From contig NZ_CP154351.1 of the NCBI RefSeq assembly GCF_039519235.1, positions 682,001-746,000 of the forward strand: 64,000 nucleotides of DNA, given 5' to 3'. Shown one piece after another: positions 16,315 through 55,889 of this stretch. The stretch is from Micrococcus sp. 2A (lineage in GTDB: Bacteria > Actinomycetota > Actinomycetes > Actinomycetales > Micrococcaceae). The stretch's first letter is position 1. The number at the start of each line of letters is the position of its first letter. The notes beneath the pieces are model-generated. The model did no database searches. It saw only the letters and a program-made list of their open reading frames with translations, and had not been told where the DNA came from. Position numbers and translations under genes: made by a program.

Positions 16315-16347
16315 TGTCACACATCCGTGAGGGAGTAGCACGAATCC
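16315..16347 (+). promoter_or_regulatory. ECF-type promoter motif 1
   Basis: TGTCACAC, 18 nt, CGAATCC. It lies about 50 nt upstream of the ATG at 16398 and matches three other sites in the element. TGTCACA is a known -35 for some ECF groups. Confidence 0.6.
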
Positions 16348-16397
16348 AGTTACGAGAGCGTCGGCACTAGATGCAGACCATGAGCAAGGAGAGCAAC

Positions 16398-17066
16398 ATG
16401 TTGGATGGGATCAATCCGGACGGCCTTGAGGGCTGGAACACGATCGCGGGCTTCCTGCTCGGGTCGGCCGTGGTGCTGCTGATGGTGGCGGTGGCTGCGG
16501 GTGTGGCGATGGCGGTGTGGGGTCGGGCGATGATGTCGCACCATGCCGCGCGGAAGGGCTGGGCGGTCGTTGCGATGGCCGGACTCGGGGCGGTGATCAT
16601 CGGCTCCGTGGGTGGCGGGATCACCTGGGGCAAGGGTCTGGGGACGGCAGAGCTCATGCCGGTCGGTGCGCGCCCAGGGTCTGTGACGGTGGAGAAGCAG
16701 GCACCGAAGCAGACCTGCAACCGGCAGGCCGTGCGGGACTTCGTCAAGGAGAGCCCTGTCCCTGATCGCGCGGAGAAGGAGCGGGTGGTCTCCACCGTGC
16801 TGGGTGGGCAGAAGGAGCTGGACGGCTACACGTGGGGCCAGGATCCCGGTGACATGGACACCTCGCGCCAGGTCATCACGGGGATCAAGTGGTACGCGCA
16901 GGCCTCCGCGAATGGCAGCAGTGAGCCTGACTGCTCGGCCAACAACATGACCACGCCCGAGTGCTCCCCGGTGGAGGTGCATGTGGCGCGTCAGTCGATG
17001 ACGAACGGTGCGCAGACGGGCCGGACGGTGACGCTAACGAAGGGCGAGAACTGCAAGTCTTCCTAG
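16398..17066 (+). CDS. conjugation-associated membrane protein
   Basis: A 222-residue protein starting at ATG 16398 behind an AAGGAG site; in-frame ATGs at 16371 and 16380 lack one. It has two transmembrane helices (about 15-40 and 55-80), then an extracytoplasmic domain of about 140 residues with four cysteines (NRQAV region; EPDCSANNMTTPECS; GENCKSS), suggesting disulfides outside the cell. It has its own ECF-type promoter motif. Its TAG stop (17064-17066) is formed at the junction with the IS5 element; removing the IS restores TCC TAG G, so the gene is not truncated. Confidence 0.65.
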   Translation: MLDGINPDGLEGWNTIAGFLLGSAVVLLMVAVAAGVAMAVWGRAMMSHHAARKGWAVVAMAGLGAVIIGSVGGGITWGKGLGTAELMPVGARPGSVTVEKQAPKQTCNRQAVRDFVKESPVPDRAEKERVVSTVLGGQKELDGYTWGQDPGDMDTSRQVITGIKWYAQASANGSSEPDCSANNMTTPECSPVEVHVARQSMTNGAQTGRTVTLTKGENCKSS

Positions 17067-17082
17067 AGCCTGTCCTGTAACT

Positions 17083-17574
17083 TCATCGGAGCCAGAGCAC
17101 GATGGCCGCGAGAGTGAGTTCCGCAACGTAGTACGCGGCCCGTTTCGCATACCGGGTCGCCAGATCCCGGAACTGCTTCAACCGGGCGAAAGCCCGTTCC
17201 ACGACGTTGCGCCGGGCGTACTCCTCCCGATCAAAGGCCGGGGGGCGCCCACCCCTGGCCCCTTTGGCCCGTCGCCGGGCGGCTTGATCAGACTTCTCAG
17301 GGCTGGTGAACCTCACCCCGCGGCGCCGCATCGCTTGCCGAGTCGAGGGATGCGAGTAGGCCTTGTCCGCGATCACCGACTCAGGCCTGCACCGTGGCCG
17401 GCCCACCCCCTGGCGGCGCACCCGGATCTTCTCCAGCAACGGCAGCAACTGAGGGTTGTCACCAGCCTGTCCCGGGGTGAGGACCACACTCATCGGTAAC
17501 CCGCGCCCGTCCACGGCCAAGTGGATCTTGCTGCTCAGCCCTCCCCGGGAGCGTCCGAGGTGCTCTCCGGCCAC
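17083..17574 (-). CDS. IS5-family transposase, ORF B
   Basis: C-terminal part of the DDE transposase, with the second Asp in VIADKAYSHPST and the Glu in NVVERAFARLKQFRDLATRY. The first residues shown (MAGEHLGRSRGGLSSKIH) belong to the fusion protein; the part beginning RSRGGLSSKIHLAVDG is conserved. It is probably expressed only as a frameshift fusion with ORF A. Confidence 0.85.
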   Translation of the reverse strand: MAGEHLGRSRGGLSSKIHLAVDGRGLPMSVVLTPGQAGDNPQLLPLLEKIRVRRQGVGRPRCRPESVIADKAYSHPSTRQAMRRRGVRFTSPEKSDQAARRRAKGARGGRPPAFDREEYARRNVVERAFARLKQFRDLATRYAKRAAYYVAELTLAAIVLWLR

Positions 17575-17948
17575 AGCGATGGCCTCGACCGGGTCAGAGC
17601 AGCCCCTCTTTTCCGGGCACCAGCAGCATGCTGATGAGCCCGGACCACGGTGGAGTCAATCGAGAGGACCCATTCGATCTCGCCCACCGCGTCGTCCTTG
17701 ACCACGGCTTCCTCGAGGATCTTCTGCCAGGTCCCATCCATCGTCCAGCGCCGCAGGCGTTCGTGTGCGGTCTTCCACGGCCCGTAGCGTTCGGGCACGT
17801 CCCGCCACGGGGCCCCGGTGCGCAGCTTCCACAGGATCGCGTTGATCACCTGCCGGTGATCCCGCCACCGCCGCCCCGACCTGTTCACCGGCAGCAACGG
17901 TTCGATCCGTTCCCAGGCCTTGTCTGTGAGCTCTCCACGACCAACCAT
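17535..17948 (-). CDS. IS5-family transposase, ORF A
   Basis: N-terminal part of a DDE transposase. It contains the DUF4096-type domain (LTDKAWERIEPLLP; ILWKLRTGAPWRDVPERYGPW) and the first catalytic Asp in LSIDSTVVRAHQH. It starts at ATG 17948 and overlaps ORF B by about 40 nt in another frame, so a full transposase would need ribosomal frameshifting, as in the IS427 group of IS5. Confidence 0.85.
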   Translation of the reverse strand: MVGRGELTDKAWERIEPLLPVNRSGRRWRDHRQVINAILWKLRTGAPWRDVPERYGPWKTAHERLRRWTMDGTWQKILEEAVVKDDAVGEIEWVLSIDSTVVRAHQHAAGARKRGAALTRSRPSLWPESTSDAPGEG

Positions 17949-18016
17949 CGGCTCAGTGAACACCACCGTGCGCGAAGCCGGCCACGCCACGCCGACCACT
18001 TACAGGACAGGCTCTA

Positions 18017-18161
18017 GGCGGCGGCCGGCATAGCGGCCGCCGCCGTCGGAGATGTCGCCGAGCCCCTTCACATCCACGCGCACCCAGAACCCGGGGTGCG
18101 CGTACTCACCCCAGCGGACTGACTCGCCCGTGGCGAACCCTCCCGGTGGTGTCGATGTGCA
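18017..18161 (-). pseudogene. short gene remnant with strong hairpin
   Basis: Downstream of the MFS gene on the minus strand the frame stays open for about 48 codons after the MFS stop (GESVRWGEYAHPGFWVRV and on to GGGRYAGRR) with coding-like composition, but it has no start and is cut by the IS5 end. It is probably a remnant of a gene disrupted when the resistance cassette or IS arrived. Its end, 18017-18044, is an 11-bp perfect GC stem (GGCGGCGGCCG / CGGCCGCCGCC) with a 6-nt loop that could also stop transcription from either side. Confidence 0.4.
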
Positions 18162-19406
18162 TCACGCCCCGTCCGCCACGCCAACGGTCGTCCGCGGCAT
18201 TCTCAGTTGACCCAGGGTTGCGAGGAGGACTGCCGTGACTAAGGGCACCAGTCCAGCGCTGATGAACAGCGTGTGGGTGTCGATGTGCCGGCTGAGCAGC
18301 CCGGTGAGGGCAATGGACAGCGGCATGAAAGCGATGGAAATGAAGAAGTCGAGGCTGGCGACCCGGCCAAGCATCTCAAGCGGGACATGCTCCTGGAGGA
18401 CTGTGCCCCAGATGACCATTCCGATCCCGATCAGCGCGCCGTAGATCGCGAGCCCCACACCGATGGCCCACGGGTTGCTGGTCAGTGCAGGGATGGTCAA
18501 AGGCAGGCAACCGAGCGCCCAGGCGCCGATCATGGCGGGGAGGAAGCGTTCCGGTGTGCACCACGACCCCGCCAGCAGGGACCCCACCAGTCCACCGACG
18601 CCGAGAGCCGCGAGGACGGCCCCGTACAGGGCTGGCCCGTTCTCGTGTGAAGAGCGCATGAGGGCGGGCAGGAGCACTTCAAGCGGTCCGGTCACGACCA
18701 GCCCCATGACGGCCGCGAACAGGACACTGGTGCGGACCCAGCGTGTGCGGGCGGCGTAGCCGAACCCGTCGAGCAGGTCGCCGATCGGCGAGGCAGCCGA
18801 CGCGTCAGCCTCACTCTCGGCGGGCGTAGGGGCAGGCAATTGCAGAGCGGCGAGCAATGCGACAGCGAGTGCCGCTGCGATGAGATACCCGCCAGCGGCG
18901 GGCATGCTGACGCCGATGACTGCTCCGACGGCGGCGGGCGCGAGCGCCTGGCCGACTAGGGGGCGGGTGGCACCCTCGAGGCCGTTGACAGCCATCAGGT
19001 CATCGCTTTCCACCAGGACTGGCACGAGGGCGGTGTACGCGGGGAAGAAGAACGCGGTGGAAACGCCGATGAAGAACGCGGAAGCCGCGAGCATCCAGAA
19101 GGCGACCATGCCGAAGACGGCGACTGTGGAGGTTGCCGTCGCGATGGCCAGGTTCAGAGAGAGCACGCCCACGATGACGGACTTGTTGGGGATCCGGTCA
19201 GCAAGGACACCGGCCGGCAGGGACCCGGCGAGAAGGCCGATGCCGCTCCAGACCACGACTCCCGAGAGCGTGGCGGGCGTGGCACCCAAGTCGAGGGTCT
19301 GCATGGCCAAGTAGAGGGCCCAGGCGCCCTGGGCGAAGATGGTCAACACCATCGCGGCGAACAGCCAGCGGTAGGTGGGAATGGTCAAGGGGCGCAGCGG
19401 ATTCAC
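18162..19406 (-). CDS. MFS efflux transporter (Mef-like)
   Basis: A 414-residue major facilitator protein with about 12 hydrophobic segments, and the family loop motif after helix 2 ([11 protein letters not shown]). The gene starts 4 nt inside the end of the ABC-F gene (ATGA overlap), so the two form one operon. An MFS pump coupled to an ABC-F ribosomal protection factor is the mef-msr arrangement of macrolide resistance. The drug specificity here is inferred from that pairing and from the upstream leader peptide, not from sequence identity I can measure. Confidence 0.8.
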
Positions 19407-21055
19407 GGCATGTCCTTCGGGTCGAGATCAAGGTGGGGCCAATCGGCCAAGTCGTCGAGCATCTGCCGGTCATGCGTGGCGACGATCACCGCGCAAGGGG
19501 TCTGCAGAAGCTCTGTGGTGATGTCATCGACGAGGCTCGACGACAGATGGTTGGTGGGCTCGTCCAGGAGCAGCAGGTCCGGGTCCTGCGCGAGGCACAG
19601 GGCCAGGTGGAGACGGCGTTGCTGTCCTTGCGACAGGCGCCCCACGGGGGTGCTGGTCGCGGAGGTCTCGAGCAGTCCCAGTGAGCCGAGAGAGGGTGCC
19701 TGAGATCGGCAGCCCAGCTTCGCCAGGTACGTCTCGTAGGCCACGTGGGCAGGGCTGGTCCGGTCCCAGTCGGGGACCTCCTGGGACAACAGGGCGATGC
19801 GTGCGCTGGGGTTCACCTGCACGTACCCGGTGGTGGGGACTAACCGCTGTCCGAGAACCGCCAGCAAGGTGGACTTGCCCGCGCCGTTCGGCCCGGTGAC
19901 GACCAGCCGGTCTCCCCCGTTGACTCCGATCGAGACAGGTGTGTCCAACCGGCGCTCCACGGTGAGCATGGAGGCGTTCACGATGCTCATTCCGCGTCGT
20001 GCCGAGGACTTCGGCCACGCCAAGCGCAAAGGGGGTTCCGGCACGTCGATCTCGTGCCGCTCCAGGTCTTCGACACGTCGCTTGAAGGCCTGTACCACCC
20101 CCGCGGCGCGGGTGGCGCGTTGGTGCTTGCCGGTGCCCTTGTCAGGTCGCCATCCGCCCTGGGACAGGCGGGAGCGCGCCTCGGCTGCAGCACGTGTCAG
20201 CTGCGCATGCCGGGCGACCTGGGCGGCATGGTCCTGCTCCCACGAGACTCGTTCCCGTTGCCGGCCTTCGACCCATCCCTGGTACCCGCCCGCATAGGTC
20301 CGAGGCCGGCCGTCACGGGTCGGATCGAGATCCAGGAAGGTGGTCGCCACGTCGCGCAGCAGAGCGCGATCGTGGCTGACCAGGGCCAGACCGCCGGCGT
20401 GGTCCCGCAAACGTTCGGTCAGGAAGGACAGCCCTGCGGCGTCCAGGTGGTTGGTGGGCTCGTCCAACAGGAGCAGGTCAGGGGTCGAACCGAGGGCGAC
20501 GGCCAGCCGGACCCGGTACCGCTGGCCGACCGACAAGGTCGACAGGACGCGATCGCGGTCGCTGCAGGCGTTCAGGCCTTCCAGAGTGATGTCCACACGT
20601 CGTTCGGCATCCCACGCGTCCAGCAACGTGGCCCTCTCGAGCGCAGCCGAGTAGGCATCGGCTGCGTCGTCCCCTTCGGCGAGGGCAGCGCTCGTCGCGT
20701 CCAGTGCCTCGAGGGCAGACCTGGAGGGGCCAGTCGCCTCGGCGATGAGGTCGCCCACCGTGCAGTCGCCTTCGGTGGCCATGTCCTGTTTGACCAGGAC
20801 GAGGGAACCCGCCTGGGTCACGACGCCTGAGTCAGGTTGCAGGATTCCGGCCAGCAGATGGAGCAAGGTGGTCTTGCCCCGGCCGTTGTCGCCGACGATC
20901 GCCAGACGCGACCCGACAGAGACCGTGACGTCCACCCCGTTCAGGACATGCCTGTCCCCCAGGGTGATGTGAATGGATTCAGCGCGGATGTGTGCGGCGT
21001 GCCCCTGGGGCGTCCCGTTCCACACACACGACCGCAAGGATCGTGAAGTTGGCAT
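19403..21055 (-). CDS. ABC-F ribosomal protection protein
   Basis: A 550-residue protein with two ATP-binding domains and no membrane segments: Walker [10 protein letters not shown] (55-63), signature LSVGQR, Walker [13 protein letters not shown]; then an Arg/Lys-rich interdomain linker (about 245-330); then [17 protein letters not shown] and [17 protein letters not shown] proteins of this type (Msr, TlrC, OleB) dislodge antibiotics from the ribosome. The annotated start gives about 20 extra residues before the conserved [10 protein letters not shown]; a later start is possible. A leader-peptide ORF and hairpins precede it. Confidence 0.85.
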
Positions 21056-21079
21056 TGCGTACTCTCAGCTCGTCATGGA

Positions 21080-21162
21080 GCCGGGCACCACAAAGTGACC
21101 GCCCGGCAGATGGCCAGGACGGCAGACGAGAGATCAGAAGGGGTCCCGCCGCCGTCAGCGGG
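21080..21162 (-). promoter_or_regulatory. attenuator-type hairpins upstream of the ABC-F gene
   Basis: One stem, GCCGGGC (21080-21086) with GCCCGGC (21101-21107), lies just before the ABC-F gene. A second, CCCGC (21145-21149) with GCGGG (21158-21162), spans the stop codon of the leader peptide. Stalling on the leader would prevent the second stem and could free the downstream gene. Confidence 0.45.
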
Positions 21163-21199
21163 CGGAACGCAGCTTCATCGAGGCGATGCCTGAGTACAT
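21155..21199 (-). CDS. leader peptide of the resistance operon
   Basis: A 14-codon frame, MYSGIASMKLRSAR, lies about 100 nt upstream of the ABC-F start on the same strand. Lys9-Leu10-Arg11 fits the +X+ motif (Arg/Lys-X-Arg/Lys) at which macrolide-bound ribosomes stall. The likely -10 ends only 11 nt before its ATG, so the transcript would be nearly leaderless. Hairpins overlap its 3' end and the region before ABC-F, as expected for attenuation. Confidence 0.6.
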   Translation of the reverse strand: MYSGIASMKLRSAR

Positions 21200-21210
21200 G
21201 GGGCTGAGGA

Positions 21211-21241
21211 TACCTAACCGGGTGAGTCTTGGGCGAACCAA
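21211..21241 (-). promoter_or_regulatory. promoter of the leader/ABC-F/MFS operon
   Basis: On the minus strand TTGGTT (21236-21241) and TAGGTA (21211-21216) are 19 nt apart, a plausible -35/-10 pair placing the start of transcription a few bases before the leader ATG. Confidence 0.4.
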
Positions 21242-21574: not shown

Positions 21575-21600
21575 CGTGTGTCAGGGGTGTGTGACACACG
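21575..21600. repeat. inverted repeat overlapping promoter motif 2
   Basis: CGTGTGTCA and TGACACACG form a perfect 9-nt inverted repeat with an 8-nt spacer; the right arm is also the -35 of the ECF-type motif. It could be an operator. Confidence 0.5.
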
Positions 21601-21623
21601 CAGGAGGCCAAGGGGCGCGAATC
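21592..21623 (+). promoter_or_regulatory. ECF-type promoter motif 2 (transfer operon)
   Basis: TGACACAC, 18 nt, CGAATC. It lies about 78 nt upstream of the first transfer gene (21702), in the same orientation as that operon. Confidence 0.6.
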
Positions 21624-21701
21624 ATCCTCAGCGAGCGGAGGTCTCGCCGGTCACCGGGGGCTAACCGGGGGTCTACTACCGCGTTCCAGGAGGAACACAT
21701 C

Positions 21702-22013
21702 ATGAGCACTTCCATTCTGAGCCTGGCCCAGAGCACGGTCATCGGCATGCCGGCGATCGCGCCGTCCTACGACGCGCCGTGGATGCCGACGCTGGAGAAC
21801 ATCACCGGCATGGCCATCGGCACGGCCCTGGTGGCCATCGTGGCCGCCGTTGCCATCGGCGGCATGCTCTGGCTGTTCGGCAAGCTCTCCTCGTCCGGCC
21901 GTGCCCAGGAGGTCGGCATCTCGATCTTCCTGTGGGGTGTGGTCGGTGGCGCCCTGATCGCGGGTGCTTCCGCTCTGGTGCGCTGGGGTACGGGCCTGCC
22001 GCTGTTCGCCTGA
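21702..22013 (+). CDS. small two-helix transfer protein (pilin/PrgI-like position)
   Basis: A 103-residue protein with two hydrophobic helices (about 35-60 and 75-97) after a polar N-terminus; the start follows a strong AGGAGGA site. Its size, topology and place just ahead of a TrbL/VirB6-like gene match small VirB2-like or accessory membrane components of type IV secretion. First gene of the transfer operon. Confidence 0.65.
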   Translation: MSTSILSLAQSTVIGMPAIAPSYDAPWMPTLENITGMAIGTALVAIVAAVAIGGMLWLFGKLSSSGRAQEVGISIFLWGVVGGALIAGASALVRWGTGLPLFA

Positions 22014-22055
22014 TTCGATCCGGTCTAGCAACTCACTCACGGAGGAGGTGTCCCA

Positions 22056-23099
22056 ATGGGATGGGAAGACGATTTTCATGATTTCCTGCGCGGCTCGATC
22101 GAGGGCCTGGCGAAGTCGGCGTGGCGCCTCATTCAGGACGCCTTCTCCGTGGGGGCGCTCACCCCGGAGTGGTGGACCACGGTGGTCGGTGGCACGGTCA
22201 CCACCACCGTGGCCGGGGGGAGCTCGGCCACGATCAATCACCCCGGGATGCTGAACGTCGTGGTCATGGCGATGCTGCCGCTGCTGGGGGTGTTCGTGGC
22301 GGTGCAGGTGATCCGCTCGGCGTTGCGCGGCTCGACGGCGGGCATGGTTCGCGCCCTGGTGGTGGCCGTTTTCAGCGTTCCGGCGGTCTACGTGGTCGTG
22401 GGTCTGGTGTGGCTGGCGTTGGGGGCTACCCAGCAGATGACGATGTGGATTCTGCGGGTCGGGGCGGAGGGGGAGGCGGAGGACACGGCAGTGGCCGGCG
22501 TGCTCTCCCTGTTCGGGCTGTCCTGGGATGGGCAGAACGACAAGGTCTTGCTGGATGAGAACTACGCGCAGTGGGAGATGGCGTCCGACCAGGGCGAGAA
22601 CGGCATGATCTTGGTGTCCTGGATCGTGGCGTTGGTGATCTTCCTGTCCTGCTTGGTGCTGATGGCGATGATGATCTTCCGCCTGGTGGTGATCCTCGTG
22701 CTGGCTACGTTCGCCCCGCCGGTGATCTTCGCGTTGGCTCTGGAGCCGGCGAAGGCCGTGTTCTCGAAGTGGTTGGCCATGCTGATGGGGTTGCTGATGG
22801 CGGCCCCGATGGCGGCGGTGATCGTGCGGATGGGCATGATCGCGGCCTCCATGTCCACGGACTGGGTGCAGACCGTGGCCGGTGTCGTGTTGGTGCTGCT
22901 GGCTTCGGCGATGCCGCTGACGATGCTCTCGATGATGTCGTTCCTGACGGGGGGTGCCTCCGATGGTGTGGAGCGCGCTGGTGTCGGTGCGGCCCAGGGT
23001 GCTGGCCGGGCTGCGTCCCGGTCGATGAGGGGTGCGCAGGCGCGTGCCTCACAGATGAGACAGCGTGCGGCGTCCGCCGTCATGCGGAAGGGAGTTTGA
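22056..23099 (+). CDS. TrbL/VirB6-like channel protein
   Basis: A 347-residue polytopic protein with about six membrane segments, an extracellular loop around 130-170, and a basic cytoplasmic tail rich in Ala, Arg, Gln and Ser (about 300-347). This is the inner-membrane channel component expected next to the VirB4 ATPase in a Gram-positive mating apparatus. It is separated from the previous gene by 42 nt and from the next by 1 nt. Confidence 0.75.
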   Translation: MGWEDDFHDFLRGSIEGLAKSAWRLIQDAFSVGALTPEWWTTVVGGTVTTTVAGGSSATINHPGMLNVVVMAMLPLLGVFVAVQVIRSALRGSTAGMVRALVVAVFSVPAVYVVVGLVWLALGATQQMTMWILRVGAEGEAEDTAVAGVLSLFGLSWDGQNDKVLLDENYAQWEMASDQGENGMILVSWIVALVIFLSCLVLMAMMIFRLVVILVLATFAPPVIFALALEPAKAVFSKWLAMLMGLLMAAPMAAVIVRMGMIAASMSTDWVQTVAGVVLVLLASAMPLTMLSMMSFLTGGASDGVERAGVGAAQGAGRAASRSMRGAQARASQMRQRAASAVMRKGV

Positions 23100-23100
23100 G

Positions 23101-24696
23101 ATGGCGGTCATGGAGTCGATCCAGCAGGAGACCTCGGAGTTCGACGGGGTGCATTTCGCGCAGGAGCGCCACCCTGGTGTAGTCCTCGGGCTGACCTGGG
23201 AGCAGCTGGCCGTGGTCGCGCTCGGCGCGGTGTTCGCCCTCGGCGGGATCGTGTTGCAGGGACGGATGCTGATCATCGGGATCGTCATGCTTCTGGTGTG
23301 CGCGGCGGTCGGTGTGATCCGGCTCCAGGGCCGGTCGATCCCGGAATGGACGCTGCTGTTCGTCCGTCAGCTGGTGCGCCAGGCCAGCGGTCAGCTGACG
23401 TACCGGCAGGGCGTGGAGCCGGGACATCAGCTTCAGCTCGTGGATGGGGAGCCGCAGGCTGTGGTCCTGGAGGCCGGGCAGGCGGCGGTCCGTGATGCCA
23501 AGGGGCGGATCAAACCGGGTGCGCCGGCACGGCTGCGTCTGCCCGGTGGAGCCGACGAGCTGCGCCTGTACGGGCTTCCTGGTGGGGCCGGGTTCGTGTG
23601 GGATCCGCGCACGAAGGAAGCTTCGGTCTGCGCGAAGGTGCTGACCACGCGTGGCTTCGAGCTGGAGTCGTTCGACTCGCAGGAGGAGCGGTCCCTGTCC
23701 TGGGGTGGAGCGCTGGCGGCCATGGGCCGGCTGCCGGGTGTGGTGCGCGTGCAGGCGGCGGACCAGACCACGCTGATCTCCGGCTCCAACGTGCTGGGCT
23801 ACTACGACTCCAAGCAGGAGGGGGCGGGCATCGAGTCCAAGACGGTGGACCCGTTCCTGGACGCGGCGTTCCGTGAGCTGATGGCGGAGGCGCAGGCCAT
23901 GCCGGTGCATGAGCAGTGGCTGACCATCGTGCTCTCCCCGGCCCGGATCGGGTCTCAGCTGAAGTCGCTGGGCGGCGGCGTGCCGGCCCTGATGGACCAC
24001 GCGCTGAAGGTCATGTCCACGGTGGAGGGTCTGCTTCCGCGTTCGGGGACGCGGGTGGCGGCGTGGCATTCCCCGCGGTCGCTGGCGGGGCTGTCTCGGG
24101 CGGCGTTCGATCCGGATGCGGCCCTGATGGTGTCCTCTACGGACCCCTCGGGTGCGGTGCAGGGTGCGTCCCCGAACGGGGGTGGGGGGCCGATGGCGGT
24201 GGAGGTCCATGCCGGGCACATGCGCACGGATGGGCACATGCACCGGACGTACAAGGTCTCGGAGCTGCCCCAGCAGCTGGCGCGGCTGGGGTTCCTGGAT
24301 GAGTTGATCTTCGCGGGCGACTTCCGGCACACCGTGTCGGTGTTCATGTCGCCGGTGGATCGGTCGTCTGCGATGCGGGCGACGAAGCGGCGCATGGCGA
24401 CGTGGCGTTCGGACTCCAAGGTGATGGAGCGGATGGACCGGCCGCCGTCCCCGGAGCACGAGCAGGAGAAGGATGACATCGAGCGGGAGCAGGGGGAGCT
24501 GATGAAGCGGCACGCCGGGTTGGAGATGGCCGTGCTGGTCACGGTGACGGGGCGCAATGAGTCTGAGCTGGAGGCGGCCTCGAACGAGATCATGACCTCG
24601 TCTATCACTGCCGGGTGTGAGCTGCGCCCGCTGTACCTGGAGCAGGATTCGGCGTTCATGGCCGCGGCGCTGCCGTTCGGGATGGTGAAGCTCTGA
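23101..24696 (+). CDS. SCO6880-like type IV secretion protein
   Basis: A 531-residue protein with two transmembrane helices near the N-terminus (about 35-75; GLTWEQLAVVALGAVFALGG), as in PrgI-like proteins, then a large soluble domain. The pattern matches SCO6880-family proteins that precede the VirB4-like ATPase in actinobacterial conjugative elements; the C-terminal part resembles the N-terminal region of VirB4. Its TGA overlaps the next ATG by 1 nt. Confidence 0.75.
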   Translation: MAVMESIQQETSEFDGVHFAQERHPGVVLGLTWEQLAVVALGAVFALGGIVLQGRMLIIGIVMLLVCAAVGVIRLQGRSIPEWTLLFVRQLVRQASGQLTYRQGVEPGHQLQLVDGEPQAVVLEAGQAAVRDAKGRIKPGAPARLRLPGGADELRLYGLPGGAGFVWDPRTKEASVCAKVLTTRGFELESFDSQEERSLSWGGALAAMGRLPGVVRVQAADQTTLISGSNVLGYYDSKQEGAGIESKTVDPFLDAAFRELMAEAQAMPVHEQWLTIVLSPARIGSQLKSLGGGVPALMDHALKVMSTVEGLLPRSGTRVAAWHSPRSLAGLSRAAFDPDAALMVSSTDPSGAVQGASPNGGGGPMAVEVHAGHMRTDGHMHRTYKVSELPQQLARLGFLDELIFAGDFRHTVSVFMSPVDRSSAMRATKRRMATWRSDSKVMERMDRPPSPEHEQEKDDIEREQGELMKRHAGLEMAVLVTVTGRNESELEAASNEIMTSSITAGCELRPLYLEQDSAFMAAALPFGMVKL

Positions 24697-26207
24697 TGGC
24701 CGAGACCAAGCACGCGGTGATCGAGTTCATCGAGCCGGGCAGGACGCAGACCAAGGACGCTAAGCGTGCGGCGCGTCAGCTGCGCCGTCGGCTGGAGAAG
24801 GAGCGCGCGGCGGCGCGCAAGGCTGAACAGCTGGACAAGTTCCCGGAGCAGGAGTGGTCCTCGAAAGGGCCGAGGGGCAAGCAGAAACTGCGGGGGTTGA
24901 AGGTGCTCGCCCCCCGGCCGGTGCGCACGACCAGTCACACGGCGGCCACGGCGTACCCGTTCGTGGCCGGCCCCGGTGTGGGCGCCAACGGCCTCTACCT
25001 GGGCCGGGATCAGCACGGCGGTGGAGCGTTCTGCTTCGACCCGTGGAGCCTGTACGAAGCTGGGGTCATCTCGGGCATGTCGATGATGCTGTTCGGGCAG
25101 GTCGGCACGGGGAAGTCCTCGTTGGCGAAGTCGCTGGCGGTGCGGCAGGTGCTGGCCGGGCGCAAGCTGTCGGTGGCCTCGGACAAGAAGGGTGAGTGGA
25201 CGCGTGTGGTCAAAGCCCTGGGCGGGACGGTCATCCAGGTCGGTCCGGGCCTGAGCACTCGGCTCAATCCCCTGGACCCGGGGACTCGTCCGTCCACGGA
25301 CGTGCAGGGGCACCTGATGACGGATGAGGCGTGGGCGATGATGGTCCGCACCCGGCGGATGTCGATCATCGTGACCCTGGCGAAGATCCTCACGGACCGT
25401 GACCTGACTTCCCCGGAGCATCACATGCTCTCCCAGGCGTTGGATGAGGCCGTGCGCATCTCCGGGGAGCAGGGTCGGGTGCCGGTGATCCCGGACGTGA
25501 TCGACGCGCTCGAGGCCATGCGCCAGGACGGGGACGTCATGGCCGCGGAGGCGGCCTCGGTGATGATGATGACCATGGCGCGGGTGTCCTCGGGTGACCT
25601 GGCGGGCATGTTCGACGGGGAGACCACCGTGATGATGAGCGCGGAGGCCCGTGCCACGAGCATCGACACCTCGGCCCTGCGTGGGGCGTCCCCGGAGGCG
25701 GTGCGCGTGGTCAACGCGTGCGCCGGCGCGTGGACGGAGGCGATGGTGACCACGCGCGACGGTGGCCAGCGCATCGTGATCTACGAGGAGGGCTGGGACA
25801 ACATCTCCTCGGAGGCGGACCTGCGGCGCATGGTGGAGCAATGGAAGCTGGCCCGCGCCTACGGCATCTTCAACATCCTGGTGCTGCACAAGATCGCGGA
25901 CCTGGACATGGCCGGTGACCGCAGCTCGCGCATGGCCGCGATGGCGAAGTCGTTGCTGGCCGACGCGGACGTGAAGGTCATCTACCGGCAGGACCGGTCG
26001 GCGTTGCAGGTGACGTCCTCGGAAATGGAACTGTCCGACCGGGAGGTGTCCCTGGTGCGGTCTCTGCCCAAGGGCACCGGGCTGTGGCGGCTGGGGGATT
26101 CCTCCTTCGAGGTGAAGAACGAGCTCACGAAGGCGGAGCTGCCGCTGTTCGACACGGACGAGCGGATGGACAGGACCGCGACAGGAGCTGGATCACATGC
26201 GGCGTGA
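24696..26207 (+). CDS. VirB4/TraE-like conjugation ATPase
   Basis: A 503-residue motor protein. Walker A is GQVGTGKSS (134-142); the Walker B-type segment is IVIYEEGWDNI at about 360. It energises assembly of the mating channel at the membrane. The N-terminal domain is short compared with classic VirB4, which fits a split in which the preceding gene supplies that part. It overlaps both neighbours (1 nt and 11 nt). Confidence 0.85.
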   Translation: MAETKHAVIEFIEPGRTQTKDAKRAARQLRRRLEKERAAARKAEQLDKFPEQEWSSKGPRGKQKLRGLKVLAPRPVRTTSHTAATAYPFVAGPGVGANGLYLGRDQHGGGAFCFDPWSLYEAGVISGMSMMLFGQVGTGKSSLAKSLAVRQVLAGRKLSVASDKKGEWTRVVKALGGTVIQVGPGLSTRLNPLDPGTRPSTDVQGHLMTDEAWAMMVRTRRMSIIVTLAKILTDRDLTSPEHHMLSQALDEAVRISGEQGRVPVIPDVIDALEAMRQDGDVMAAEAASVMMMTMARVSSGDLAGMFDGETTVMMSAEARATSIDTSALRGASPEAVRVVNACAGAWTEAMVTTRDGGQRIVIYEEGWDNISSEADLRRMVEQWKLARAYGIFNILVLHKIADLDMAGDRSSRMAAMAKSLLADADVKVIYRQDRSALQVTSSEMELSDREVSLVRSLPKGTGLWRLGDSSFEVKNELTKAELPLFDTDERMDRTATGAGSHAA

Positions 26208-28080
26208 ACAGGCAGGGGCGCTCAGCGGCGCCGACGAGAAAGAGCGGATCGTCATCTTCACGCTCCTGCCGGCCATGGCGCTGTTCGGCGCGTACATCCT
26301 GGCGGGCTTCCTGGCTGGGCGGGTGGAGTGCGGGGCGCCGACCCGTCCGGAGTCGCTGTTCGACACCCTCGGGTTCCTGGGGACCGGGGACCCGGCGGCG
26401 TTCGGGGCCACGGCCCAAGGCTGCACGGCCACTCAGGGCGGGGTGATCGGATGGATGATCGGGCTGGGGGTGGCCGTGCTCATCACGGCCGTGACCGCGA
26501 TGGTGGCCTGGAACCGCTACCAGCAGTCCGATAAGAAGTTCATCAAGGACCTGCGTCAGCGTGAGGGCTTGGCCCGTGCGGCTGAGATCTCCCGGGCCGT
26601 GGGCCGCTCGGCGGTGGTGAAGCGGGTGAAGAAGGTCCGTCCGTCCATCAAGAAGCCGAAGATCACCGACGGGGCCATGCGCCTGGGCAAGGCCGAGGGG
26701 GTGGACGTCTATGCCTCCTACGAGGAGTCCCTGGCGCTGATCGGTCCGCCGCGCTCGGGCAAGGGTGTGCACCTGCTGATCGGTGCGATCCTGGACGCGC
26801 CGGGGCCGGTGATCACGACGAGCTCGCGCGCGGACAACCTCGGGGCGACCGCGGAGCTGCGCCGGGCGAAGGGCCCGGTGGCGCTGTTCGATCCGCAGGG
26901 CCTGACGGGCCAGCCGTCCACGTTGAAGTGGTCTCCGATCACCGGGTGCGGCGAGCCGCGGGTGGCGAACCAGCGTGCGGCCTCGCTGATCGGGGCCTCG
27001 GGTCTGGGGTCCTCGAGCTCGAACGCGGAGTGGCAGGCGCCGGCGATCACGATCATGGAGTGCCTGCTCCACGCCGCCGCGCTGGGGGAGCGCACGGTGG
27101 ACGACCTCATGCGCTGGGGCAACAACCCTGCCGAGGCGAAGGAGGCCGTGACGATCCTCTCGGAGCATCCGAAGGCGGCGATGAACTGGAATCTGGTGCT
27201 GAAGGGCATCATCGAGGGCGATCCGAAGCTGCTCCAGTCGAAGTGGTTCGGCGTGGAAGGCGCGGTGAAGGGCCTGTCCGTCCCGGAGGTGCGCGATGTG
27301 CTCCGCCCGGGCGAGTTCGAGGAAGTCCTGGACATCGACAAGTTCCTGCGCGAGTCCGGCACGCTCTACATCGTGGGCACCAAGACCGGCGGGTCCTCGG
27401 CCGGCCCGTTCCTGATCGCCATGATGGACGCGATCACCGAGCGCGCCCGCGAGCTGGCCGCGAAGTCCCCGGGCAACCGGTTGGACCCGCCGCTGGCACT
27501 CGTGCTCGATGAGATCGCGAACATCTCCGGGGCCTGGCCGGGGCTGACCCAGCTCATGGCCGACGGCGGCGGTGTGGGCATCTGCCCATTCGCGGTGTTC
27601 CAGTCCCTGGCCCAGGCGCGCAACGAGTGGGGCGACCAGCAGGCCCAGGCACTCTTCGACGCGGCCACGGTGAAGCTCCAGCTCGGCGGCGCCTCGAACG
27701 TGTCCGACCTCGAGGCGTTCGCCAAGCTGGCGGGCACACGCCAGGTGATGCGGTCCTCGCGCTCGCGCGGGAAGGACTCGCACTCGGTCTCGGAGCAGGT
27801 GCATGACACCGAGGTCGTCACGGTCGCGGAGCTGCGGCGGCTGCCGTTCGGGTGGGGCATGATGATGAACCGCAACGGCCGGCCGATCCTGATGCAGATG
27901 ACCCGGTGGTGGGACCGCAAGGACGGCAAGGCGATCAAGGAGGCCGCGGGCCGGTACTCCAAGGCGCTGCTGGCCGAGCTGGAGTCCTCCGACCCGGTGC
28001 CCTCGACCCCGACGGCGGCAGACAAGGCCGAGACGCCGGCGCAGGTGCCGGCTGAGGTCGCCGCGATCCCGGTGCGGTGA
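26197..28080 (+). CDS. type IV coupling protein (VirD4/TraG-like)
   Basis: A 627-residue ATPase that links the relaxosome to the channel. Two N-terminal membrane helices (about 15-40 and 75-100) precede the motor. Walker A is GPPRSGKG (183-190); Walker B is LALVLDEIANI with Asp438-Glu439; a QSLAQARNEWG segment follows, as in TraG/TraD proteins. The start overlaps the VirB4-like gene by 11 nt. Confidence 0.9.
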   Translation: MRREQAGALSGADEKERIVIFTLLPAMALFGAYILAGFLAGRVECGAPTRPESLFDTLGFLGTGDPAAFGATAQGCTATQGGVIGWMIGLGVAVLITAVTAMVAWNRYQQSDKKFIKDLRQREGLARAAEISRAVGRSAVVKRVKKVRPSIKKPKITDGAMRLGKAEGVDVYASYEESLALIGPPRSGKGVHLLIGAILDAPGPVITTSSRADNLGATAELRRAKGPVALFDPQGLTGQPSTLKWSPITGCGEPRVANQRAASLIGASGLGSSSSNAEWQAPAITIMECLLHAAALGERTVDDLMRWGNNPAEAKEAVTILSEHPKAAMNWNLVLKGIIEGDPKLLQSKWFGVEGAVKGLSVPEVRDVLRPGEFEEVLDIDKFLRESGTLYIVGTKTGGSSAGPFLIAMMDAITERARELAAKSPGNRLDPPLALVLDEIANISGAWPGLTQLMADGGGVGICPFAVFQSLAQARNEWGDQQAQALFDAATVKLQLGGASNVSDLEAFAKLAGTRQVMRSSRSRGKDSHSVSEQVHDTEVVTVAELRRLPFGWGMMMNRNGRPILMQMTRWWDRKDGKAIKEAAGRYSKALLAELESSDPVPSTPTAADKAETPAQVPAEVAAIPVR

Positions 28081-28084
28081 CCTG

Positions 28085-28486
28085 GTGGGCAGGTTTGGAC
28101 TGCACCGCACCGGCTCGACGTCGTATCGGGAGTACCTGCGGAGCCAGGCGTGGGGATACCGCAGGGTGCGGTGGTTCGAGCAGTGCCGGCAGGCCGGCGT
28201 CGAGCCGGCCTGCCAGGTCTGCCAGGTGCGCCTGGACGAGGCGGGGACGTTGGACCTGCACCACCTCTCCTATGAGGGCGTGCACCAGGACCCGCAGACC
28301 GGGACGTGGCAGGCGCGGGAGAAGGACGAGGAGCTCATGCCGCTGTGCCGGGAACACCACCAGCGGCTGCACGAAATCATGGACGGACGGAAGGAGTTCT
28401 TCGGATGGAACAGGGCGCGGGCCACGGTAGTGATCGTGGCAAGGATGATCCGTCAGCGACGCCGGAAGGCGGCGGTGACCTCGTGA
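28085..28486 (+). CDS. HNH-type nuclease domain protein
   Basis: A 133-residue protein with a CQVC pair (54-57), LDLHHLSY (about 65-72) and a C..HHQRLH block (about 97-104): the zinc and metal centres of an HNH endonuclease. The start is GTG 28085, 4 nt after the coupling protein. Nuclease genes of this kind are common near coupling proteins; whether it processes element DNA is unknown. Confidence 0.7.
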   Translation: MGRFGLHRTGSTSYREYLRSQAWGYRRVRWFEQCRQAGVEPACQVCQVRLDEAGTLDLHHLSYEGVHQDPQTGTWQAREKDEELMPLCREHHQRLHEIMDGRKEFFGWNRARATVVIVARMIRQRRRKAAVTS

Positions 28487-46309: not shown

Positions 46310-46311
46310 GC

Positions 46312-52700: not shown

Positions 52701-52799
52701 GTGCGCCGTCATGTGAGGCAGGTGCTGCGCAAGCACCGACTGCACCAGACCGAGGGGCTGTTCGAGAAGGCCTACGCCTACATCGCGGAGCACTACTGA
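49761..52799 (+). CDS. hsdR: type I restriction endonuclease subunit
   Basis: A 1012-residue motor-nuclease. The N-terminal PD-(D/E)XK domain has Glu153-Leu-Lys155 in VVGELKTP. The helicase core has Walker A QGSGKT (293-297 region), DEAH at 388-391, FTGTPI, and motif VI-type segments near 650. It translocates DNA and cuts when blocked, in complex with HsdM and HsdS. The C-terminus is helical, as usual for HsdM binding. Confidence 0.95.
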   Translation: MNIGEILSVQTPLVQALAGVGWQHISGDQLDRTDEDPFHSREVEQALIRLNPAISEDRQRAQEILRRLRTVPLTARDSGLVEANRDFAAWLKGEVTHEYVGTKGSVPVTLIDFEDLSNNTYIVSDEVRYGTPGHIARFDAVLWVNGFPLVVGELKTPLEKNKSWATGARELVDTYQPGWAPFFVSNVLCFATEGKQYRYAGVGTPLQHWYMWGAVPDQPRLSHVLETAASMLTPAVVLDFLQDFSIFEASQTAAAGSLNKLLARYTQYEAVNRIVERVKDPDKRKGLIYHTQGSGKTLAMVFAAGKLLRDPELKNPTIVLVADRVQLVQQLWDQFRTTSMPRLQVPGSAAGLRSALSSDRRGLIFTTVHKFAGAGVLNTRENVVVMVDEAHRTQEGDLGQTMRAALPNANLFAFTGTPIADVDRNTFATFGDEFDPGSALHTYGTDESIRDGMTVPIHVAPRKVEFSLDKEALDQAFAVMAADENLSDEQQDEIARRASRAATFFANPERIRAVCADIVDHFYETVDPLGMKAQIVVIDRAACVAYTEELDRLLQERYERQSVAARTDPSAEPPVRDEVGVVMTVGTAKGEEPAWQKYALTDAQEAALLKRFRTFDDPLKFLVCTSKLGTGFNAPIEGVMYLDKPLKDHTLFQTITRANRTWRNPQTDADKRYGIIVDYVGLGAGFAKAMAPADPDQVAPQIEVSGLIEMFKGQLEHMMARFAGIDIDEPGPQTLMDAQARIPGQADQERFAADYAMLEGVWESLWPTDGLRPHRGAYRFLSQVYASLQPSPGEGEHLWHRLGVKTLELVHRHMDDITVTRADEVVVADEDTVRTLMDEGLLDDPKEVEGKSADDLIDSIAQRLKKRLAGPSGQSPQFKSLAERLDRLRERTMAAAQQSIEWLREAFTLAKDLTAAEKADDEGTLELLPDPRIGALTQIFMEFAPEDAPMLVERVVKDIDAIVKQVSYDGWEATLEGDRLVRRHVRQVLRKHRLHQTEGLFEKAYAYIAEHY

Positions 52800-52818
52800 T
52801 GGACGGTCGGGTGCGAGC

Positions 52819-53376
52819 GTGAAGGTCGGCTACGCCCGGGTGAGCACGCGGGACCAGGAAGGATCCCTCGAGGGCCAGGAGGCAGCCCTGACCACGGCCG
52901 GATGCTCGAAGATCTTCCGGGACCGCCTCTCCGGTGCCAGAGCCGACCGGCCCGGTCTCACCGAGGCGTTGGCCTACCTGCGTGATGGTGAGGACACCCT
53001 CGTCGTCACGCGTCTGGACCGGCTCGGCCGGTCCCTGCCGGATGCGTTGCGCACCGTGCAGGCCCTGGCTGATCGGGGGATCGGCTTGCAGGCCCTGGAC
53101 GTGGACCTGGACACCTCCACGGCCTCGGGACGGCTGATGCTGAACATGCTGCTGATGCTGGCCGAATGGGAACGCGACCTCCTCCGAGAACGCACCCGTG
53201 AAGGTGTGGCCCGCGCCCGAGCTGCCGGAAGACTCCCGGGACCGAGGCCGAAGCTCGACGCGGAGAAGATCGCCGCCGTGCGTGCTGTGGTGGCAGGCGG
53301 GCAGCCCGTGGCAGCGGTGGCCCGCTCGTTCGCAGTCTCCCGGCCCACGATCTACAAGGCGCTGGGGACAGCGTAG
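52819..53376 (+). CDS. serine recombinase
   Basis: A 185-residue small serine recombinase (Ser9 in GYARVSTRDQ; VVTRLDRLGRSLPDALRT; AEWERDLLRERTREG) with a C-terminal HTH (QPVAAVARSFAVSRPTIYKAL). The GTG start is 19 nt after hsdR. It could resolve or invert DNA near the restriction operon; I see no second hsdS cassette that would be its substrate. It is related to, but different from, the recombinase at 55,270. Confidence 0.9.
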   Translation: MKVGYARVSTRDQEGSLEGQEAALTTAGCSKIFRDRLSGARADRPGLTEALAYLRDGEDTLVVTRLDRLGRSLPDALRTVQALADRGIGLQALDVDLDTSTASGRLMLNMLLMLAEWERDLLRERTREGVARARAAGRLPGPRPKLDAEKIAAVRAVVAGGQPVAAVARSFAVSRPTIYKALGTA

Positions 53377-53465
53377 AAGGGCCGTTCATGGGCCCCGGCT
53401 GGTTCTGCTTAGGATCAGCGCTGATGCAGTCGCGCATCCCCATTCACTCGAGCAAGGACCCGCCC

Positions 53466-54131
53466 ATGTCACGACGCTCTCTGGCTTCTCTGGCCACTGC
53501 TGCCGTTTTCGTCGCCACCGCCGTCCTGGGCGGTGCTGCTCCTGCTTCGGCCGGCACCACGTATTCGGCGCCGTTGCGCACGGCTGTGTCGTCTTTGCCG
53601 GTGGCTGCGGAGGTGAATGCCGGCTATGACCGGGCCGCTCAGTTCGGTGACTGGAAGGATGCGAACGGGGACTGCCAGAACACGCGGGCTGAGGTGCTGA
53701 TCGCTGAGTCCAAGACCATTCCGACGTACACCACGACGCGTAAGTGCACGGTGGCCAGGGGCAAGTGGGTGACCGGTTGGGATCTGGTCACGCACACCTC
53801 TGCCTCGACGGTGCAGATCGATCACATGGTGCCTGTGCATGAGGCGTGGGGTTCTGGGGCGCGGTCTTGGACGCAGGCCAAGCGGGTGGCGTTCTACAAC
53901 GATCTGGGCGATGCCCGGTCCTTGAACGCGCAGACTTCGGCGTTGAACTCGGCCAAGCAGGCTCGGGGTCCGGAGGCGTGGCTGCCGCCGAAGAACCAGT
54001 GCCAGTACATCGCTGACTGGACTGCGGTGAAGATCCGTTGGGGGTTGAAGGCTGATGCGACGGAGAAGGCGTTCTTGGTGAAGAAGGCCGCTTCCTGCGC
54101 GAACACCGCGCTGACCGTGACTCGGTACTGA
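53466..54131 (+). CDS. secreted HNH-type nuclease
   Basis: A 221-residue exported protein. The signal peptide (MSRRSLASLATAAVFVATAV and following, cut after APASA) precedes a mature domain with VQIDHMVPVHEAWGSGA, the His-metal motif of extracellular HNH nucleases common in Actinobacteria, and four cysteines that could form disulfides. In an ICE it might degrade competing extracellular DNA or help wall or DNA processing during mating; that is speculation. ATG 53466 is chosen because it starts the signal peptide; upstream ATGs are in frame. Confidence 0.8.
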   Translation: MSRRSLASLATAAVFVATAVLGGAAPASAGTTYSAPLRTAVSSLPVAAEVNAGYDRAAQFGDWKDANGDCQNTRAEVLIAESKTIPTYTTTRKCTVARGKWVTGWDLVTHTSASTVQIDHMVPVHEAWGSGARSWTQAKRVAFYNDLGDARSLNAQTSALNSAKQARGPEAWLPPKNQCQYIADWTAVKIRWGLKADATEKAFLVKKAASCANTALTVTRY

Positions 54132-54147
54132 CCTAACACGTCCCATC

Positions 54148-54187
54148 GCGCCCGCCCCCTAGCCACACTCGGTTAGGGGGCGGGCGC
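54148..54187 (+). terminator. strong hairpin after the HNH nuclease gene
   Basis: A perfect 14-bp stem, GCGCCCGCCCCCTA with TAGGGGGCGGGCGC, and a 12-nt loop, 17 nt after the stop codon. Confidence 0.8.
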
Positions 54188-54190
54188 CGT

Positions 54191-54275
54191 CGTATCTGGA
54201 GGTGCCAGATACGAAGGTTTTTGGCGCACTCCCAGTTGAGTGTCCTCGGAGTCTGGCTCGCCCTGGCAAAACCTT
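54191..54275. other. inverted-repeat cluster, candidate oriT or regulatory region
   Basis: CGTATCTGG / CCAGATACG (54191-54213) is a perfect 9-bp stem followed by a T-run. Then AAGGTTTT (54214-54221) pairs with AAAACCTT (54268-54275), enclosing CACTC / GAGTG (54227-54242). Nested repeats in a 430-bp gene-free gap of a conjugative element are typical of a transfer origin, but the first hairpin could equally be an intrinsic terminator. No relaxase gene is visible in the window. Confidence 0.4.
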
Positions 54276-54490
54276 GGACAGAACCCCCGCGCCTAAACGG
54301 CGGGCTAGTTGGGCATGCTGGCGCACGGCATGGTGGCGGCCGCGCACCTCCTGGCGGTCAAGCCCGAGCGGAGCGAGGGGCTGAGCGCAACGTGGGTCCA
54401 GGGGCCGTGCCCCTGGTGCCTGGGTGCGGGGCGGCATGAGCGCCCGCGACATGCGTCTGTTTCCGACGAATCCTGGGCGTGAGGCTCCGG

Positions 54491-54523
54491 TGACACACAC
54501 GTGGGCCGGCGGCAGACGAATCC
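54491..54523 (+). promoter_or_regulatory. ECF-type promoter motif 3
   Basis: TGACACAC, 18 nt, CGAATCC. It lies about 40 nt upstream of ATG 54563, which favours that start over the GTG at 54527 that would fall right at the promoter. Confidence 0.6.
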
Positions 54524-54562
54524 CCCGTGAACGAATCGAGATTCACGAGAGGGGCCGTGCTG

Positions 54563-55273
54563 ATGACGACGACGCCGGAGATGGTGCAGGTGGGCATGTC
54601 GGGGGTGCCTGCGTGGCTGTGGGAGGAGCTGGGCTGGTTCAGCGACGACGTGCTGAGGCGGTACTTCAGCCACCGTGGCCTCCAGGTCTACTACTCCGAC
54701 GGCGGGAGCCCGCAGTACCTGGAGTCCGTGGGGGTGCTGGCGTGGGAGAGGGCTATCGAGGTGTGGTCCGGGGCGATCACGCAGGGGCAGACCGTGAAGG
54801 GGGTCCTGAGCAAGGGCCGGCTGTCCGAGGCGCTGACGGAGCTGCTGAACGACGAGCTGGACCTGGATCCGGGCGCGGTGTGGCTGGACCGGGACAGTCC
54901 GGGGCCGAGCGTGTTCATCGCGGCGGGCTGGGACGTGGACTGGTGGCGGCCGGAGCTCGGTGTGGAGGTGGCCTCCGAGTACGAGGGTGCTCCGGTGGTC
55001 GAGAAGGTCCGGGAGGCCATGACGACGGCGTGGTCCATGGGCGCCCGCGCCATGCTCGGCGGGACGATCTACGCCACCGACCGGCCGGCCGGGCCGGCGT
55101 TCATGCTCTCGGCCGAGGGGCTGGTCCTGGAGGCCGCGTCGGAGTCTGCGGTCGGGGCGGTCTCGGAGCTGCTGGGACGTGGACCGGACCTGCCCGTTTG
55201 GGAGGTCCCGTTCATCGCGCCGAACGCGGCGCCGACGGGGCCGCTGACGGCTTGGACGTGGGCGTTCGGGTGA
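54563..55273 (+). CDS. unidentified element protein
   Basis: A 236-residue acidic, Trp-rich soluble protein (VPAWLWEELGWFSDDVLRRYF; GWDVDWWRPELG). I recognise no family. It has its own ECF-type promoter motif and overlaps the serine recombinase gene by 4 nt, so it is expressed with it. Confidence 0.65.
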   Translation: MTTTPEMVQVGMSGVPAWLWEELGWFSDDVLRRYFSHRGLQVYYSDGGSPQYLESVGVLAWERAIEVWSGAITQGQTVKGVLSKGRLSEALTELLNDELDLDPGAVWLDRDSPGPSVFIAAGWDVDWWRPELGVEVASEYEGAPVVEKVREAMTTAWSMGARAMLGGTIYATDRPAGPAFMLSAEGLVLEAASESAVGAVSELLGRGPDLPVWEVPFIAPNAAPTGPLTAWTWAFG

Positions 55274-55842
55274 GCGGGGTGTTGGCCGGGTACGCGCGGG
55301 TGTCTACGCGGGATCAGGCGGAGTCGTTGGTGGCCCAGCGGCAGGAGCTCGAGGCGCTGGGGTGTGAGCGGGTGTTCGAGGACGTGGTGTCCGGGGCGCG
55401 GTCTGAGCGGCCGGGGTTGACCGCTGCCCTGGACTGGGTGCGGGAAGGGGACACGCTGGTGGTCACGCGCCTGGACAGGCTTGGCCGGTCCACGGTGGAC
55501 ACGCTGAGGACGGTGACCGCGCTGGAGGAGCGTGGGGTGCGGATCAAGGCGCTGGATCTGGACCTGGACACGGCCACGGCCGGTGGCCGGCTGGTGGTGC
55601 GGACGCTGGCCTCGCTGGCCGAGTGGGAGCGGGACCTGCAGGTGGAGCGGACTCGGGTGGGTCTGGCGCACGCTCGCGCCCAGGGCCGGGTCGGGGGCCG
55701 GCCGCGCAAGCTGAGCGTGGCGGCGGTGGACGCGATCAAGGCGTCGGTGGAGGCCGGCGTGCCGGCTGGGGACGTGGCCGCGATGCACGGGGTGTCCCGG
55801 CGCACGGTCACGCGGGTGCTGGCGGGGGAGTACGAGCGGTGA
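55270..55842 (+). CDS. serine recombinase
   Basis: A 190-residue small serine recombinase from GTG 55270. Ser12 is in GYARVSTRDQ; VVTRLDRLGRSTVDTLRT and AEWERDLQVERTRVG follow; C-terminal HTH (VPAGDVAAMHGVSRRTVTRVL). It sits in the ICE backbone under a transfer-type promoter rather than beside an IS, so it may resolve multimers of the excised element. Confidence 0.88.
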   Translation: MSGVLAGYARVSTRDQAESLVAQRQELEALGCERVFEDVVSGARSERPGLTAALDWVREGDTLVVTRLDRLGRSTVDTLRTVTALEERGVRIKALDLDLDTATAGGRLVVRTLASLAEWERDLQVERTRVGLAHARAQGRVGGRPRKLSVAAVDAIKASVEAGVPAGDVAAMHGVSRRTVTRVLAGEYER

Positions 55843-55855
55843 GCGCGGCGATGTG

Positions 55856-55889
55856 TGTCACACGCGCGGGGGCCGTCGGGGTCGTATCC
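55856..55889 (+). promoter_or_regulatory. ECF-type promoter motif 4
   Basis: TGTCACAC, 19 nt, CGTATCC, about 50 nt before the ssb start. The -35 overlaps a short palindrome, GTGTG-T-CACAC. Confidence 0.55.

Follow-up and report, generated by a model that had tools for sequence, protein, structure and literature searches.

The window analysed here, a stretch of 64,000 nucleotides from Micrococcus sp. 2A (contig NZ_CP154351.1, positions 682,001 to 746,000), carries, and on its right is continued by, a predicted integrative conjugative element (ICE) of about 67 kb, which is inserted in a tRNA-Asn gene and recognizable as an ICE by its gene content. Its left edge is the 3' part of the tRNA-Asn gene from window position 11394, and the repeat of this part lies about 67.3 kb to the right, at L091:14743 (L091 being the sequence right of the window, in its own coordinates; other L-numbers denote loci of relatives and G-numbers genomes), and a genome of the same species is homologous only up to position 11518. 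The element encodes a sigma factor resembling those of the extracytoplasmic function (ECF) group, and a two-box motif recurs before its operons. Comparison with related elements leads us to propose that this sigma factor very probably drives a private conjugation regulon through these -35/-10 sites.

The type IV secretion system (T4SS) operon of the element encodes a TrbC pilin and a TraG/VirD4 coupling protein, both recognized above the cut-off, and a VirB4-like ATPase that falls below curated cut-offs. Right of the window lie genes for a TrwC/MobF relaxase of 1223 amino acids (L091:1890-5561(-), E 2.3e-70), a tyrosine integrase (Phage_integrase, E 9.5e-19), a transglycosylase/M23 peptidase, and an ATPase with weak ParA-like matches below the cut-off; an SSB protein and serine recombinases are also encoded by the element. 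A Citricoccus plasmid displays the same gene order around the sigma and T4SS genes, together with a MobF relaxase. The features discussed below are collected in the table.

Table. Candidate promoter sites, operons and regulatory genes of the element (window coordinates unless an L-number is given; scores are from a matrix trained on relatives)
Feature	Position	Strand	Remarks
Promoter site 1: TGTCACAC-N18-CGAATC	16315..16347	+	Before geneA; exact match; score 19.6
Promoter site 2: TGACACAC-N18-CGAATC	21592..21624	+	Before T4SS operon (first gene, TrbC-like pilin); exact; score 21.6
Promoter site 3: TGACACAC-N18-CGAATC	54491..54523	+	Before unknown gene and serine recombinase; exact; score 21.6
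Promoter site 4: TGTCACAC-N19-CGTATC	55856..55889	+	Before ssb; exact; score 16.5
geneA, membrane protein of unknown function, under site 1	16401..17066	+	Orthologues adjoin sigma or T4SS in relatives; open reading frame without Pfam match
T4SS operon under site 2: TrbC pilin, VirB4-like ATPase, TraG/VirD4 coupling protein, others	21702..28430	+	Pfam
Unknown gene and serine recombinase under site 3	54563..55842	+	Resolvase E 7.8e-41, second gene
ssb and two genes downstream, under site 4	55940..58229	+	SSB E 2.3e-08; other two without Pfam match
ECF-like sigma factor, 278 amino acids: region 2, region-4-like helix-turn-helix (HTH), extra C-terminal domain of about 80 residues	15181..16017	+	Sigma70_r2 E 1.7e-11
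Tail-anchored membrane protein, 97 amino acids, candidate anti-sigma factor	16014..16307	+	Start overlaps sigma stop; no Pfam match
Genes before sigma	12057..15174	+	HTH protein 12057-12938, DUF2637 protein 12785-14053, HTH_36 protein 14050-15174; Pfam
XRE/Cro-C1-type HTH gene, candidate repressor, divergent from sigma operon	11393..11785	-	Pfam HTH_3 E 9.5e-11
Second XRE-type HTH gene, first toward sigma operon	11794..12060	+	Open reading frame listed from 11794, internal ATG about 11830; HTH_3 E 4.4e-11
Two near-identical 15-bp palindromes, candidate operators	11770-11784, 11805-11819		Between XRE genes
Inverted repeat TGGCACCAAGGTGCA before relaxase operons	L091:6319-6333 (window coordinate about 70330)	-	Also at L055:4469, L057:11636 (-), L090:3015 and L173:15745

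The four sites that an earlier note on this DNA had claimed are all exact, lie on the plus strand, and have spacers of 18, 18, 18 and 19 nt. At sites 1 to 4, the gap between the -10 box and the start codon measures 54, 78, 37 and 51 nt, so that the claimed distance of 40-80 nt is close overall, with three sites inside it and site 3 just short of it. All four are real, yet they undercount the element, as a matrix trained on relatives adds two sites right of the window, one before the relaxase operon (L091:6300(-), score 22.1) and one before the ATPase-transglycosylase operon (L091:10765(-), score 15.8). The whole-genome scan that the note had suggested as a check finds no strict match outside the element: in the 2,621,632-bp host genome the pattern TGWCACAC-N17-20-CGWATC has four matches, each at one of the four element sites, against a chance expectation of about 0.07 matches per genome (arithmetic from base composition), and the reversed control pattern has no match in the same genome. 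Across 11 genomes of the genus, the related pattern GTGWCACAC-N17-20-CGWAT is present in five, with four matches here, one each in three other sigma-bearing genomes, and one in G179; G124, which is also sigma-bearing, has none.

That a few AT-richer words in GC-rich intergenic DNA have assembled by chance is a reading that such single matches elsewhere, at G179 and at two places in the host, might be taken to favor. We find it scarcely credible in view of the whole-genome count and of two tests with held-out data. The matrix was trained on 16 sites from relatives, with no window site included, and gives the four window sites the scores listed in the table; it returns only two matches at or above 16 in 436 kb of host sequence (best 17.5), against eight in the 67-kb element. 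When each of eleven elements was left out in turn, 33 of 37 operon-upstream regions, chosen partly after motifs had been seen, reached p<=0.01 (500 dinucleotide shuffles), compared with 1 of 95 upstream regions of control genes from the same elements (300 shuffles). In this comparison the gene g28571 was a target in Citricoccus, G060 and G034 only, its site there being known beforehand, and seven other elements contributed it to the controls; six trbC regions without a site were placed among the controls, and ssb of G139 and G001 was left unscored. The matrices were built on the letters of the boxes with gap weights set by hand.

The comparison with related ICEs, likewise suggested in the note, places the motif before orthologous operons despite diverged spacers: in five orthologous pairs the sequence between the boxes is identical at only 6-10 of 18-19 positions, with the boxes themselves kept. 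The consensus of 29 listed sites is TGACACAC-N17/18-CGAA(C/T)(C/T), in which the -35 box is invariant at G2, C4 and A5 and the -10 box at its CG; the spacer is 17 nt in 11 sites, 18 in 15, 19 in two and 20 in one, the last being that of Citricoccus ssb, which was entered as 18 in the matrix site lists. The geneA orthologue is preceded by the motif in all 11 elements scored, G034 included. An early count of consensus positions had already given 11-14 of 14 before geneA in eight of nine elements (p<=0.04) and 10 of 14 in the ninth, with trbC scores that were non-significant in all eight relatives. Before trbC the motif is found in 5 of 11 elements (the window element, G166, G044, G124 and G139) and is missing from Citricoccus, G060, G001, G140, G003 and G034. 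It further precedes the relaxase operon and the ATPase-transglycosylase operon, each in five elements, as well as the recombinase operon in three (the window element, G044 and G139) and ssb in two (the window element and G044). As a side observation, the T4SS, relaxase and sigma genes of one apparent element in G034 (L154, L158 and L173) lie at both ends of a single contig, as if the contig started inside the element; the promoters of this element hardly differ, distant as its sigma is.

The shape and position of the motif bear on whether it could instead be an operator for a DNA-binding regulator encoded by the element, such as the HTH proteins starting at 12057 or 14050, and no promoter at all. 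Several HTH proteins are indeed encoded by the element, and two of the four window sites, those at 21592 and 55856, contain the palindrome GTGTG-W-CACAC. The left arm of this palindrome is not retained among relatives, so that the conserved unit is a directional two-box motif, with the boxes on the sense strand at a fixed spacing of 17-19 nt, and we reject a palindromic operator on this ground. Moreover, in all five elements whose relaxase operon was available (the window element, G044, G139, Citricoccus and G034), exactly 6 nt separate the -10 hexamer from the ATG of that operon, a fixed distance that supports a promoter rather than an operator; we consider the operator explanation very unlikely. 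Transcription starting at the A of this ATG would mean that the -35 box spans -38 to -31 and that the -10 box has its CG at -12/-11, and the spacing is what a leaderless transcript from that position would need.

Two further features accompany these sites. The site-4 palindrome yields an antisense match on the minus strand, from 55860 to about 55829 (score 22.5), which reads into the recombinase gene and is left uncounted; a comparable antisense match stands at the end of the recombinase gene of G139 (L049:14914), and these matches are either chance or an antisense promoter. The five elements with an available relaxase operon share an identical inverted repeat, TGGCACCAAGGTGCA, which lies 17-25 nt upstream of the -35 box of this operon. 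There are MobF origins of transfer with such a repeat, and the one here could be part of an origin of transfer (oriT) or an operator.

The presence of an ECF-like sigma factor, as the note had read it, stands. Pfam recognizes Sigma70_r2 in the window protein and in all 17 family members scanned; Sigma70_r4 is matched in none of these 17. Profile-profile alignment with 21 ECF-like proteins extends over residues 37-175, into the region-4-like HTH, at 99% probability, and the best solved relative in the profile search is Mycobacterium tuberculosis SigK (PDB 4nqw), the match covering region 4 of SigK. The C-terminal 80 or so residues carry 5 of the 12 invariant columns of the family (P211, G247, R254, L263 and A267), and no domain family is recognized there by Pfam in the window protein or the 17 members. 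A single-sequence fold of low confidence (mean predicted local distance difference test score, pLDDT, 46.9) renders this part helical, with a block of pLDDT 75-85 at residues 221-260. Eight other genomes and one plasmid carry relatives of the sigma factor with 44-68% identity.

The sigma gene and the T4SS co-occur. Among 395 genomes of the family, counted from match listings (VirD4 relative at E<=1e-60, close VirD4 at E<=1e-150, sigma relative at E<=1e-15), 84 hold a VirD4 relative; a sigma relative is present in all 18 genomes with a close VirD4 versus 1 of the 66 with a more distant one (G160), a contrast that may in part reflect distant sigmas missing the threshold. G082 and G279 have a sigma relative without a listed VirD4, and G036 and G250 have VirD4 on another contig than their best sigma match. 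Identity to the window proteins declines in parallel, from 90 to 46% for VirD4 and from 68 to 31% for sigma, with the exception of G034 (VirD4 71%, sigma 33%).

As for the control of the sigma gene itself, neither the matrix scan nor the control scoring detects the motif upstream of its operon. The divergent XRE-type genes with the palindromes between them suggest a repressor switch of the cI/Cro kind. On the downstream side, all 10 elements whose sigma is at least 44% identical encode, after sigma, a protein of about 100 amino acids with a single transmembrane segment at its C-terminus, while the six more distant elements examined mostly do not have this arrangement; its position makes the 97-residue protein of the window a guess for an anti-sigma factor.

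Taken together, the exclusivity of the motif in the genome, its conservation before orthologous operons, and the co-occurrence of sigma and T4SS support the note's proposal that the element has its own ECF-type promoter for transfer genes; the CG that opens the -10 box also fits ECF promoters. In the mechanism we envisage, the XRE-type pair would control the sigma operon through its operator-like palindromes, and the sigma factor, once expressed, would bring RNA polymerase to six or more operons of the ICE, namely those of geneA, the T4SS channel with its coupling protein, the unknown gene with the recombinase, ssb, the MobF relaxase, and the ATPase and transglycosylase. Transcription would start about 6-7 nt past the -10 box, which at the relaxase operon would be the A of the start codon and yield a leaderless mRNA, and the tail-anchored protein, coupled to sigma, may restrain it. 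Conjugation could thus be switched on as a unit by one protein.

Several observations weigh against this reading. The recognition of the motif by the sigma factor is argued from comparative evidence, and the threshold effect noted above tempers the co-occurrence counts. Further matches at or above 16 within the element are the antisense one at site 4, one at 17929 in the transposase region (17.6) and one at 25082 in the VirB4-like gene (16.2), the last two of which lie inside genes and are taken as chance. G179 has its single strict match despite lacking any sigma or VirD4 match in a 91% complete assembly; by eye, the match sits where a LytR-type-looking and a glycosyltransferase-looking reading frame meet. 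The four misses of the leave-one-out test comprise the relaxase operon of G034, where the start is misplaced and the site is present, and ssb of Citricoccus, G060 and G034, which is not significant; ssb of G139 and G001 shows no clear site by eye. In the more distant elements some of the expected places do show the -35 box, with a -10 box that drifts. Finally, distant sigma-bearing elements are weakly separated from apparently sigma-less ones, with 14.1 vs 13.9 hits per 100 kb at a threshold of 13, 7.3 vs 3.9 at 15 and 4.2 vs 1.2 at 17, and several of the apparently sigma-less, VirD4-only loci hold weak ECF-like matches; because of this weak discrimination and these matches we do not use the comparison as main evidence.

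A rival reading is an ECF-type promoter that is read by a chromosomal sigma factor of the host, the sigma-like protein of the element doing something else. This would agree with G034, which keeps the motif though the one strong sigma match it has reaches only about 32-33% identity, and with the many weak ECF-like matches outside such elements in genomes of the family. We nevertheless consider it improbable, as the strict pattern is absent from the remaining host genome, the motif occurs on elements bearing this sigma family in hosts of several genera, and, among the six genomes of the genus that lack a sigma match, five have no pattern match and G179 has one. Recognition by the element's own sigma factor remains our preferred explanation. 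A more distant comparison is an Arthrobacter plasmid with a sigma 35.6% identical: by eye, TGACACAC stands before its geneA-like gene, TGACATGC before an AAA gene and TCACACAC-N18-CGAATG upstream of its relaxase operon, which, with the drifting -10 box, is suggestive only.

A broader proposal, for which we see the case as evenly poised, is that a whole family of Micrococcaceae conjugative plasmids and ICEs places its entire transfer program under a dedicated two-box promoter and an ECF-like sigma of an undescribed subgroup, whose C-terminus carries an additional HTH-like domain and whose gene is translationally coupled to that of a tail-anchored anti-sigma protein, under a phage-like XRE switch over sigma, with a leaderless relaxase mRNA, and portable across host genera. 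To our knowledge, the timing of transfer in actinobacterial conjugative elements with VirB/VirD-type channels is poorly understood. If our reading is true, one small protein and one motif would define a complete transfer regulon. The motif also serves as a sequence tag for transfer operons, as it did here in pointing out the relaxase and transglycosylase operons beyond the window, and sigma and motif would form a natural sigma-promoter set, the strict motif being absent from the rest of this host genome.

Between geneA and the T4SS operon, 17083-21055 on the minus strand encodes an IS4/5-type transposase (two overlapping frames), an MFS transporter and a protein with two ABC domains (ABC-F-like); it looks like an insertion, because in G124 a gap of only about 0.2 kb separates geneA from the T4SS operon. 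A cargo region at about 29600-54150 includes type I restriction-modification genes (HsdM 46558, HsdS 48068, HsdR 49761), an AAA_13 ATPase (40789), a D-lactate dehydrogenase (35787), an IS481-like transposase (32229) and a GmrSD_C protein (53388). No relatives were found among viral contigs.

In ECF41 sigma factors, to which the note had likened the -35 box, the fused C-terminal regulatory domain is SnoaL-like. Their promoter is TGTCACA-n16 (+/-1)-CGTC, and their targets are neighboring COE genes (PMC3426412). The likeness extends to the -35 TGTCACA of two window sites, the bipartite ECF promoter and a C-terminal extension on sigma, but 18-20 nt (counted from TGWCACA) and CGWAYY here contrast with n16 and CGTC there (PMC3426412), and no known domain is recognized in the extension here. 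The ECF41 lead did not hold up, and we reject membership on the promoter spacing, the -10 box, the lack of a recognized added domain in the C-terminal part, and neighbors that are HTH_36 and membrane-protein genes rather than a COE gene.

SigK of M. tuberculosis, whose -10 box is CGAAT-like, is similar over regions 2 and 4; it is chromosomal, and its chain of 204 amino acids is by length without the extra C-terminal domain. Among mobile elements, SigN of the Bacillus plasmid pBS32 is a plasmid-encoded sigma factor acting on plasmid promoters, tied to plasmid replication and cell death and not to conjugation genes. Conjugative transposons of the Tn916/Tn1549/Tn5397 type in Clostridioides difficile encode sigma-like proteins that have been suggested to transcribe element genes (PMC7438776); these are ICE-encoded likewise, though they belong to another phylum, with promoters and targets undefined in the text examined. 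In ICEclc a sigma factor, RpoS, controls transfer, but it belongs to the host (PMC3395598), and the extracted text of a further report names only the host sigma-H, for phrI (PMC6540685). Sigma-like proteins of conjugative elements are known in kind, and for none of those encoded by an ICE or plasmid did we find a defined conjugation regulon in the open-license PMC literature, searched on broad topics by top-ranked matches. SetCD is a transcriptional activator complex and not a sigma factor. In the SXT/R391 ICEs it is an element-encoded master activator of the transfer regulon (PMC4344509), the role that we propose here for the sigma factor of the Micrococcus element.

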